Positions 5,216 through 42,670 of a stretch of DNA of 64,000 nucleotides are shown piece after piece. The notes under the pieces were generated by a model. The model was not told where the DNA came from. It saw only the letters and a list, made by a program, of their open reading frames with translations, and did no database searches. Each line of letters begins with the position of its first letter. Within the stretch, counting starts at the first letter, position 1. The position numbers and the translations under genes are program-made. Source of the stretch: Streptomyces corallincola (GTDB lineage Bacteria > Actinomycetota > Actinomycetes > Streptomycetales > Streptomycetaceae); assembly GCF_019104725.1 (NCBI RefSeq), contig NZ_JAHRXF010000001.1, forward strand, positions 248,001 to 312,000, written 5' to 3'.

Positions 5216-5390
5216 CGCACCACATGTGCGGCGGTCATAGGGAAAGTGTCGATGTTGTGTGGGCCTCGTATACGGGTCCCCGTGCCTGTTTACACGGGGA
5301 CCCGTTCCCATGTCGGCGGTACTTGTGTGGGCCACACCTGTGTGGGTGGCGTCTATATGGGCTGGATCTATGTCGGCCGCGCCCGTCACG
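5216..5390 (+). repeat. Site A: 15-bp-periodic TGTGGG array with hairpin
   Basis: Intergenic repeat array between the phosphotransferase-like gene and the amidase gene. Core hexamers related to TGTGGG start at 5311, 5326, 5341, 5356 and 5371 (TGTCGG, TGTGGG, TGTGGG, TATGGG, TGTCGG), exactly 15 bp apart. Just upstream is a perfect 13-bp inverted repeat, ACGGGTCCCCGTG (5272-5284) and CACGGGGACCCGT (5293-5305), with an 8-nt loop. CACATGTG occurs at 5221-5228, and GTGTGGGCCACAC joins a unit to its inverted copy. The same kind of array occurs at four other places in this window. I see no coding role. Confidence 0.7.
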
Positions 5391-6608: not shown

Positions 6609-6671
6609 GGGAGATACAGATCCCTTCGTGTGCCTGCGATGCCTGACTGTCGGTGCTGTCGAAGCCGATAT

Positions 6672-6730
6672 GTGTGGTCCGGGACCATGTGGTCCGCCCC
6701 TGTGCGTACGAGGTGGTTGTGTGGTCCCGG
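6672..6730 (+). repeat. Site B: 15-bp-periodic TGTGGT array
   Basis: In the 332-bp gap between the divergent genes starting at 6608 and 6941, TGTGGT cores start at 6673 and 6688. Degenerate units follow near 6703 (TGCGTA) and 6718-6720 (TGTGTGGT). GGACCATGTGGTCC is an inverted pair inside a unit, and CCGGGACCA / TGGTCCCGG bracket the array. It is related to site A, with T in place of G at the last core position. The rest of the gap holds no recognisable gene. Confidence 0.6.
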
Positions 6731-10210: not shown

Positions 10211-11245
10211 TCAGGTGTTCGCTATTCCGGGCTGGGCGAACAGGGCCGGTCGCTCGGCGAGTTCCACGGCGACCCGGCCGCCCTTCTCCAGTGAGCGGAC
10301 GCCCGCCTCCGCCACCGCCGAGGCCGCGTAGCCGTCCCAGGTGCTCGGACCGGTGACCCGGCCGGCCCGAGTGGCGTCCACCCACGACCGCACCTCACGG
10401 TCGTAGGCGTCCGCGAACCGGACGAGGTAGTCCTGCGGCACCTCGTGGGCAGCGCGCCCCGCGCCCGTGACCAGCATCCCGCCGTCCTCACCGATCCGGG
10501 CGCTGCCCGCCTCGCAGACGGCCTCGCAGCGCACCTGATAGCCGAAACCGCAGTTGACGAAGATCTCCACGTCCACGAGCGCGCCGCGCTCCGTCTCGAA
10601 CAGTGCGAACTGCGGATCGGTCAGCCCCTCGGGCGCGCCCGACGACGAGGTGGGCCGCAGCACGGTGACCGCCGTCAACTCCTGCCCGAGCAGCCAGCGG
10701 GCCGCGTCGATCTCGTGCGACACCGAGCTGTTGATCAGCATGGCGCTGGTGAAGTGGCCGGGGGAGGAGACGTTGCGATGCGTGCAGTGCAGCATTAGCG
10801 GGCGGCCCAGGGACCCACCGTCGAGCAGCGACTTCAGGCGCGTGTACTCCGTGTCGTACCGGCGCATGAAACCGACCTGGGCCAGCCGGTGGCCGAGCCT
10901 GGCTTCCGCCTCCACCACCCGCAGGGCACCGGTGGAGTCCGGCGACATGGGCTTCTCGCACAGGACGGGCAGCCCGCGCGCGAAGGCCGCGAGGAGTGCC
11001 TCCTCGTGAGCCGGACCGGGCGACGCGATCAGTACCGCCTCCACACCCGGGGCGTCCAGCGCCGCTGCCCAGTCCGTGTGCACCGAGGCCCCGTCGATAC
11101 CCGCCAGCGCGTCCCGGGCCCGCTCCCCGTCGGGGTCGGCCACGGCCACCACCCTGGCTCCGCCGACCACGGAATTCAGGCGCCGTATGTGGTCCGCACC
11201 CATGTGTCCGGCACCCAGTACGGCCACCCCGAGCAGGTCTCCCAC
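10211..11245 (-). CDS. Gfo/Idh/MocA family oxidoreductase
   Basis: NAD(P)-dependent sugar or cyclitol dehydrogenase-like protein of 344 aa. The N-terminal Rossmann domain begins [18 protein letters not shown], and the family motif CEKPMSPD (the Lys expected to be catalytic) occurs about one third of the way along. The C-terminal half is the alpha/beta substrate domain. Closest by feel to myo-inositol 2-dehydrogenase-like members, but no transport or inositol catabolic genes are adjacent, so the substrate is open. The start is a GTG at 11245 preceded by AGGAG. Probably monocistronic. Confidence 0.9.
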
Positions 11246-12680: not shown

Positions 12681-12830
12681 GTGAGTGTGGGTGCGGGCGC
12701 CACGGGTGGGGGCCCAGTGTGCGTGGGACACGTGGGGTCGGGACACGCGTGGCGCCCGCACCGTATGTGGTCGCCGCATGTATGCCCCGCCCCCACGGGC
12801 GGGCGCACATGTGCCCCCGCCTGTGGGCGC
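12681..12830 (+). repeat. Site C: GTG-rich, partly 15-bp-periodic array with long inverted repeat
   Basis: Within the 614-bp gap between the divergent baeRF and asnB genes. TGTGGG at 12686 is followed at 15-bp steps by CACGGG (12701), AGTGTG (12716), CGTGGG (12731) and CGCGTG (12746). After a 5-bp phase shift come TGTGGT (12766), TGTATG (12779), CACGGG (12794) and TGTGCC (12810). A perfect 14-bp inverted repeat, GTGCGGGCGCCACG (12691-12704) and CGTGGCGCCCGCAC (12748-12761), brackets part of it. GCACATGTGC and CCCGCCC-ccac-GGGCGGG follow. This is the most degenerate of the five related sites. Confidence 0.5.
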
Positions 12831-22950: not shown

Positions 22951-22996
22951 TCGTATGTGGGGTGCGGACATGTGGGCTCACCACATGGTTCGTGGG
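22951..22996 (+). repeat. Site D: short TGTGGG array
   Basis: TGTGGG at 22956 and 22971 (15 bp apart) and a partial third unit at 22986. CATGTGG-gctca-CCACATG (22969-22987) pairs a unit with its inverted copy. It lies just past the stop of the ROK gene (23009, minus strand), so it may also act as its transcription end. Confidence 0.6.
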
Positions 22997-31285: not shown

Positions 31286-31391
31286 GGTGCGGCTCCGGGG
31301 AGGGGAGGGCGGGGGGTGGTTCGGGGGAGACGGGGAGTGAGGGGGAGCGAGGAGGGGTGGGGAAGGCTGACGGGGGTGTGGTGTCCGGCTA

Positions 31392-31505
31392 TGTGGTTCG
31401 GCACCATGTGGGCGGTCGGATGCGGGTGGGGGGTGCGTCTCTGGGCGTGCGCCATGTGGGCCGCGTACATGTGGGCCGCGTACATGTGGGCGGCCCACAT
31501 GTGCC
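31392..31505 (+). repeat. Site E: densest 15-bp-periodic TGTGGG array
   Basis: TGTGG(G/T) cores start at 31392, 31407, 31455, 31470, 31485 and 31500, with degenerate units at 31421 (TGCGGG) and 31440 (TCTGGG); steps are 15 bp except around 31421. The unit CATGTGGGCCGCGTA occurs twice without change (31453-31467, 31468-31482) and a third copy is partial. ACATGTGGGC G GCCCACATGT (31482-31502) is a perfect 21-bp palindrome ending the array. The surrounding 311-bp gap has no gene. Confidence 0.8.
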
Positions 31506-31596
31506 TTCGCCCCATAGACCCAGCCGCATGCCCCGCCCCGGCGCGGCCCCCGGCACCTGACCCTCCGCCGCCCACCCCCGCAGCGCACCCAACCCC

Positions 31597-34802: not shown

Positions 34803-34839
34803 GGGGTCGATTCTGACCTCGGACGGGACAAGGGCGCAG

Positions 34840-34959
34840 ACGGGCCCCTACGGGACGGGCCCCTACGGGACGGGCCCCTACGGGACGGGCCCCTACGGGA
34901 CGGGCCCCTACGGGACGGGCCCCTACGGGACGGGCCCCTACGGGACGGGCCCCTACGGG
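34840..34959 (+). repeat. Tandem repeat, 8 x 15 bp
   Basis: Eight consecutive identical copies of ACGGGCCCCTACGGG (120 bp) between the divergent starts at 34802 and 34997. Each unit contains the self-complementary GGGCCC, so neighbouring units can pair. The 15-bp unit would read YGTGP in one plus frame, but no start and ribosome site support translation. Probably a variable-number repeat in a shared promoter region. Confidence 0.95.
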
Positions 34960-34996
34960 GCGGTGACCCGGCCGCGCGCTGTGTCATCATCCGCCG

Positions 34997-42096: not shown

Positions 42097-42289
42097 TTCC
42101 CGTTTCCCCGATGCCCGAAACTCCGGGTGCGGAATTCACCACGCCCATGCCGTCGCCCGCCTCTCCCGCAATTCCGTGAGAGGGAACGATCAATTCCGCG
42201 CCGGCGGCCGTGTTCCGTGCGGCCTCGTTCCGTACCGGCGCGTTCCGTCCGCCGTGTTCGGTCCCGCCGTGTTCGTCAGGCCGTGTTCG

Positions 42290-42670
42290 TCAGGCGGGCG
42301 GCATCCGGTCGAGGAAACCGAAGACCGAGCGGATGCGGTCCCCGTCGTCCAGCACGATGACGTCCGAACCCGCGACCGGCGCCGAACCGTCCGCGTCGTT
42401 GACCAGCTCCCAGCCGAAGCGTGCGATGTCGTGGTGGCCGTCCACCGTGCCCCGCGGCCGGAAGGAGAAGCCGGGGAACTGCTGGTGCACGGCCGTGATC
42501 ACCGCCGCGATCCCGGCGTGGCCGCGTACGTCGGCCAGCGGGTCGGTATAGCCCCCGTCCGGCGTCCAGGCGGCGGCCACCGCCTTCTCCAGCGCCTCCG
42601 GCTCCGCCGCGTTCCACGCCTCCAGGTAGCGGGCGACGGCGGCCTCGTAGCGGTTCGTGTTCTCGGACAT
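42290..42670 (-). CDS. SnoaL/NTF2-like protein
   Basis: 126-aa protein with the nuclear transport factor 2-like alpha+beta barrel fold. YLEAWNAAEPEALEKAVAAA forms the N-terminal helices, PDGGYTDPLADVRGHAGIAA the strand-turn that lines the pocket, and FRPRGTVDGHHDIARFGWEL and GSDVIVLDDGDRIRSVFGFL the sheet. Family members are isomerases, cyclases or ligand-binding proteins; none can be chosen here. ATG 42670 has GGAGG upstream. Alone. Confidence 0.85.
   Translation of the reverse strand: MSENTNRYEAAVARYLEAWNAAEPEALEKAVAAAWTPDGGYTDPLADVRGHAGIAAVITAVHQQFPGFSFRPRGTVDGHHDIARFGWELVNDADGSAPVAGSDVIVLDDGDRIRSVFGFLDRMPPA

Follow-up and report, generated by a model that had tools for sequence, protein, structure and literature searches.

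A clade-amplified, mostly non-coding family of 15-bp tandem repeats with a common core word in Streptomyces

Filamentous cyanobacteria carry STRR, lineage-restricted short tandem repeats of heptamer units that lie at many intergenic places, and Rickettsia palindromic elements, which are longer single insertions, lie both between genes and, in frame, within ordinary protein-coding genes. In bacterial VNTRs, or minisatellites, lineages differ in how many tandem units they carry and in what those units contain. The usual view is that a bacterial tandem repeat grows from any sequence that happens to slip, and we know of no ordinary minisatellites in which a single core word recurs at dozens of unrelated loci. 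CRISPR repeats are roughly 23-47 bp long and are separated by unique spacers of similar length. REP and BIME repeats are described in PMC2817692 as high-copy, dispersed, palindrome-related and intergenic, with the units of BIMEs alternating in orientation.

Here we describe a family of 15-bp tandem repeats in Streptomyces that is real, clade-amplified and mostly non-coding; its arrays grow locally, keep the core better than the spacer and have been gained in unconstrained DNA. The unit has a consensus of about CCYATGTGGK-N5. Like STRR, the family is a lineage-restricted set of short tandem repeats found between genes at many sites, but its units are 15 bp rather than heptamers, with a fixed core and a free spacer, and it has also grown in frame inside genes. 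Its presence both between genes and, in frame, within ordinary protein-coding genes recalls the Rickettsia palindromic elements, which are single longer insertions, whereas the copies described here form tandem arrays and give no clear sign of long-stretch copying between loci. As in VNTRs, the tandem units differ in number and content between lineages, yet here one core word is common to dozens of unrelated loci. An initial annotation of this DNA had taken the 15-bp period to fit neither CRISPR nor REP, and both exclusions stand: a 15-bp period with 8-9 variable bases between cores does not fit CRISPR, and we found neither a link to RAYT transposases nor a stable palindrome in the unit, some single arrays being good palindromes. 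The family thus resembles the REP/BIME repeats of PMC2817692 in being high-copy, dispersed, intergenic and related to palindromes, but differs in its one-way units at 15-bp steps and in the missing RAYT link. The literature searched, in which subscription journals and preprints are thinly covered, held no description of such a family, and absence from that sample is not absence from print.

The window, by which we mean the whole 64,000-bp stretch of DNA analysed, is positions 248001-312000 of contig 1 in a genome of 6.39 Mb and 111 contigs (G000). Within it, TGTGGK-N9-TGTGGK occurs seven times, against a mean of 0.04 in 100 dinucleotide shuffles, none of which reached seven; the pattern is thus commoner than in shuffled sequence. 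All seven pairs are on the plus strand and between genes, as predicted by our own codon-usage finder. Pairs of ATGTGGG with at most one mismatch peak on the plus strand at spacings of 15, 30 and 45 bp (8, 4 and 3 pairs), with smaller counts at 63 and 78 bp, and on the minus strand no spacing up to 80 bp recurs. What the initial annotation had observed was largely real and was partly confirmed. Sites B (6669..6698, cores 6673 and 6688) and D (22952..22981, cores 22956 and 22971) are, as claimed, exact two-unit pairs at 15 bp. Site A (5307..5381) had been described as five exact 15-bp steps; the spacing is right, but its five in-phase units at 5311, 5326, 5341, 5356 and 5371 make four steps, and only those at 5326 and 5341 carry the core TGTGGG, the others reading TGTCGG (5311 and 5371) or TATGGG (5356). 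At site E the spacing and cores had been listed correctly apart from the last unit, at 31500, which reads TGTGCC, off the consensus; a core at 31377 had been missed, and the site is two blocks 48 bp apart, one with cores at 31377, 31392 and 31407 (31375..31417) and the other, out of the 15-bp phase of the first, with units at 31455, 31470, 31485 and 31500 (31451..31518). Site C (12686-12810) did not hold up as a degraded 15-bp series: none of its units follow one another at 15 bp, 44 bp separate its best cores (12766 and 12810), and a few weak units fall into common phase (12686/12731 and 12631/12676/12766), perhaps by chance. A further in-phase pair, 11188/11203 (11187..11217), lies inside a predicted minus-strand gene and below the 24-bit unit-profile threshold at which arrays were called. 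Sites A, B, D and E and this pair are all on the plus strand. The window also holds two intergenic arrays outside the family. One is a near-perfect 8.3-copy array of another 15-bp unit, GACGGGCCCCTACGG (99% matches), which lacks the TGTGG core and lies at 34839-34963 in the divergent gap of two predicted genes; the other, with GCCGTGTTCCGTC-like units and a 14-15-bp period, lies at 42207-42295 and adjoins a small predicted gene.

A genome-wide search of the kind proposed in the initial annotation showed the family to be dispersed over the genome and on both strands. Strict pairs number 41 (22 forward and 19 reverse), against none for the reversed pattern, and the single orientation reported at first is a property of the window but not of the genome. 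Using the unit profile, we called 57 arrays in 537 kb of stretches chosen for having matches and none in three order-2 resamples. Control DNA of 560 kb (28 stretches of 20 kb from eight contigs without a match among the matches listed) held no array, a contrast that overstates the unevenness because these contigs were picked for missing matches; gaps of at least 100 bp are similarly many in the array and control samples (276 and 278). The placement of arrays in the core or arms of the chromosome is a trend only; one control piece could not be mapped, and several array pieces mapped ambiguously or not at all. Neither tRNA genes nor short protein motifs gave a lead. A general excess of period-15 repeats was rejected as an explanation: the hit-bearing stretches contain 49 non-coding arrays of period 15, most of them members of the family, and the remainder is about as numerous as arrays of periods 14 and 16 (14 and 12).

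Scoring of coding against intergenic position, also proposed at the outset, placed 43 of the 57 arrays between genes and 14 in genes, in sampled DNA that is 82% coding and 18% non-coding (p 4e-21). The initial annotation had put all arrays between genes and had treated a position inside a translated gene as counting against the pattern; its placement is right for the seven strict pairs and for all five above-threshold arrays of the window, but not for the 14 genic arrays, which lie in frame in linkers and tails. In three relatives, in stretches chosen for matches, the ratios of intergenic to genic arrays were 17:3 (G222), 4:6 (G385) and 7:5 (G192). Pooled over the four species, 71 of 99 sampled arrays are non-coding, with only 4 of 10 in G385.

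The arrays have the head-to-tail units and local homogenisation of minisatellites. In intergenic arrays spacer similarity is 0.58 between neighbouring units, 0.51 between units seven apart (13 comparisons) and 0.36 between arrays; units resemble those of their own array more than others, which argues for local growth. The core is better kept than the spacer: among 33 indel-free self-similarity arrays overlapping the family, pair identity is 0.89 at TGTG and 0.71 at positions 7-12, and among 23 intergenic ones 0.87 and 0.70, a difference that is partly ascertainment since arrays were required to overlap core matches.

We then scanned array-carrying genes of the four species with Pfam, covering 20 of 26 and leaving out 3 of 14 in this genome and 3 of 12 elsewhere. 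Seventeen proteins had a match, one of them (DsbD_2) below the Pfam cut-off, and in 15 of the 17 the array lies outside the matched stretch, between or beyond domains. These carriers include two double ABC ATPases, CPT, GNAT, a kinase, a histidine phosphatase, a polysaccharide deacetylase, AtuA, MelC1, TetR, a methyltransferase and a universal stress protein, among others, the arrays of MelC1 and the universal stress protein overlapping the domain edge by one or two residues. The other two arrays fall within a domain, one in an alpha/beta hydrolase and one in a molybdopterin oxidoreductase; both were called on two units and may be due to chance. Together with the excess in gaps, these positions point to a preference for spare DNA. 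In AtuA, the linker has 76 residues here and 39-41 in all 11 orthologs; the additional 35-37 residues are largely an HVxxx repeat, and none of the 11 ortholog linkers contains an HM or HV repeat.

Comparison with relatives was possible over most of the window for G385 and G222 and from site D onward for G192. The initial annotation had suggested aligning orthologous gaps between strains; run between species, this alignment showed no array wherever a syntenic gap was available, which was the case in two relatives for A and B, in three for E and in none for D. At site A both gap flanks are well conserved, and an extra array-bearing block of ~180 bp present here is missing in both relatives. This block also contains a perfect 13-bp inverted repeat (stem-loop) at 5272-5305. 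The gap at site E measures 311 bp here, and in three syntenic relatives the ends of the tblastn matches are about 165-200 bp apart; conservation within the gap is too weak to place the edges of the extra sequence. The gap sizes at site B differ little between G000 and G385. Thus, at both places compared closely, site A and the AtuA linker, the array is extra sequence between conserved flanks, which argues for array birth in place. Some orthologous gaps and genes, the tail of a sensor kinase among them, bear arrays in two or three species with differing spacers. Such common places count against pure turnover; neutral turnover does not require them.

To place the family in the genus, we searched 392 Streptomyces genomes, one per species, for a three-unit pattern with at most two mismatches, using the reversed pattern as control. 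At least one match was found in 217 genomes. The highest counts (control in brackets) were 169 (2) in G000, 116 (3) in G192, 62 (0) in G222 and 45 (1) in G385, followed by G100 with 34 (9; pattern matches only) and G268 with 32 (2). The first four, which are small genomes among Streptomyces, group together in a two-gene tree of 12 genomes (support 0.88; 1.00 for G385, G192 and G222), and the array-poor G298, G016 and G309 fall outside this group. Beyond the clade, 18 of 20 longer array loci picked among the matches listed are genic and two are intergenic (G268 and G350). Of the 18, eleven match a single sensor kinase that has a tail of HMxxx repeats, five encode small proteins rich in HM whose likeness to each other was judged by eye, and two are other genes. 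Shorter pair loci of other Streptomyces that exceed the array threshold are intergenic in 5 of 10 cases, mostly with two or three units and partly at the same places; L199 (G268) has two further intergenic arrays, and L200 (G213) is genic. In many Streptomyces the orthologous sensor histidine kinase carries a tail of HMxxx pentapeptides that is hypervariable (L173:16950-19124, L285:2-2209, L201:6026-8041; further loci L302, L305, L306, L309, L313, L314, L315 and L318-L321), with HATPase_c in both proteins scanned. A viral collection gave a single three-unit match, at L239:7077-7113 (contig IMGVR_UViG_3300029822_000049).

We read the sites, with moderate confidence, as a dispersed, core-specific minisatellite family that was born and is growing in place and has been amplified in one lineage. 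According to this reading, arrays would start in place at new loci and lengthen by 15-bp tandem duplication, through slippage or unequal exchange. The word CATGTG(G) would be needed for duplication or would favour it, and may be recognised by something in the cell. The repeat, which other Streptomyces also carry, chiefly within genes, would be older than the clade, and in one small-genome clade its growth would have become frequent. That arrays appear and grow in spare DNA, even in the linkers of enzymes, suggests that the core word is recognised and multiplied by something. A stronger version, that some Streptomyces possess a trans-acting system which recognises CATGTG(G) and builds 15-bp arrays de novo, with unrelated spacers, between genes and in frame within genes, is one we consider unlikely. 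Among three explanations offered in the initial annotation, fossils of an expanding minisatellite-like element come closest, except that the element looks recently active rather than fossil; the structured RNA fell away and the binding array is retained as a rival. Some further observations count against the reading we favour. Within arrays, spacer position 13 varies as little as the core does (0.89-0.90). Arrays in tandem gaps have their core pointing against the genes in 30 cases and with them in 12 (p 0.008), which, with a deficit in divergent gaps, indicates that the arrays are not blind to transcription. Finally, in G405 the reversed control matches 44 times and the pattern itself not once, so tandem repeats of another word can reach such counts too.

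The main rival is that a clade-specific DNA-binding or nucleoid protein occupies CATGTGG sites at 15-bp steps and that the arrays are held by selection, a possibility we take seriously but think rather unlikely. It would account for the better conservation of TGTG over spacer positions 7-12, for the regional occurrence of arrays (57 in the array stretches and none in contigs picked for missing matches) and for their retention at some orthologous places in several species. It would also fit the spacing, as 188 of 286 intergenic core-to-core distances of up to 100 bp are exactly 15 bp though no frame forces it, a count biased by the detection of arrays through 15-bp steps. A selected platform is harder to reconcile with array-free syntenic gaps at A, B and E, with arrays in the linkers of ordinary enzymes and with single CATGTGG words that are at most slightly enriched outside arrays (100 observed against 80 expected in array-bearing stretches; 42 against 46 Markov-expected in the 560 kb elsewhere). 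Nor did promoter-bearing gaps attract arrays: of the 71 pooled intergenic arrays, 67 could be assigned to a gap type, with 42 in tandem, 15 in convergent and 10 in divergent gaps against 33.4, 10.3 and 23.4 expected by gap length (p 0.065 in this genome alone). A promoter or operator reading was rejected as the main explanation, since arrays lie in every gap type and divergent gaps have fewer than expected. That the core is avoided elsewhere, as a restriction or polarity site, was likewise rejected; a deficit of coding CATGTGG hinted at in 160 kb of control DNA was gone at 560 kb. The 6-mers most under-represented against Markov expectation in the G000 samples (the window, L163-L190 and L203-L279) are GCCGGC, CCGCGG, CCCGGG and GTCGAC, for which restriction-site avoidance is one possible reason.

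A second rival, which we regard as quite improbable, is that the repeats are primarily HMxxx pentapeptides, perhaps metal-binding, and that the intergenic arrays are decayed or frame-shifted coding repeats. On the strand opposite the core the unit reads CAC ATG Gxx xxx xxC, which gives HMxxx. Genic arrays mostly use this frame and less often the HVxxx frame of the core strand, not the MWAAY frame proposed in the initial annotation, and the core points against the gene in 20 of 28 rows. A coding origin would explain why 18 of the 20 loci in other Streptomyces are genic, 11 in one sensor kinase, and why intergenic arrays favour the HM-sense orientation (30:12). For arrays in tandem gaps, the stop upstream is also closer than the start that follows in this genome (medians 73 and 162 bp) and in G385 (19 and 83 bp), but not in G222 (57 and 50 bp) or G192 (34 and 16 bp). 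However, where the spacing in intergenic arrays departs from a multiple of 15, the three frames are represented 21/17/26, whereas genic arrays stay in frame at 11 of 13, and the third base of the Met position is relaxed (intergenic C.76 and T.19; genic C.93 and T.02). We conclude that intergenic arrays generally go untranslated, in agreement with the initial annotation, which had seen no support for their translation. The 11 AtuA ortholog linkers offer no HM or HV repeat as a source, and the intergenic pair loci and arrays in other Streptomyces, including those of G268, also speak against a coding origin. Some carriers are copper-related, but a metal link is missing for most of the Pfam-matched ones. 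Repeats of the HM or related type occur in the family in the tyrosinase cofactor MelC1 and at the C-terminus of a CopA-like P-type ATPase (L187:2291-2980, L311:5755-8271), and a copper link of these two carriers is possible.

That a mobile repeat of REP/BIME or MITE type was spread by a transposase and later extended in place appears very improbable: the units are dispersed, mostly intergenic and partly palindromic, and the site A block missing from two relatives holds an inverted repeat, but the arrays inspected have no common flanking sequence by eye and block copying between loci left no clear sign. The longest substring common to different loci is 20 bases, within null maxima of 16-25 (ten replicates), and 5 substrings of at least 17 bases are shared where the null gives about 1.5, which hints weakly at some copying. 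Y1/RAYT transposases, the sole enzyme family compared with the arrays, do not track them; PF01797 is present in 4 of 10 genomes (G000, G192, G312 and G016) and absent from the array-rich G222 and G385, and RAYT was rejected as the spreading agent. The structured 3' RNA of the initial annotation was rejected, as was a hairpin: the window has no Rfam match at gathering thresholds, arrays also lie in divergent gaps and genes, and the position that needs A for pairing is occupied by it in just.27-.43 of units, C being commoner.

The recurrence of one core word at dozens of unrelated loci implies either that the arrays grow by a sequence-specific mechanism or that a binding code is under selection. 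Four array-rich species have draft or complete genomes, which makes the family testable. Because the repeat adds residues to the linkers of enzymes, it offers a tractable view of the birth of new protein segments in bacteria.
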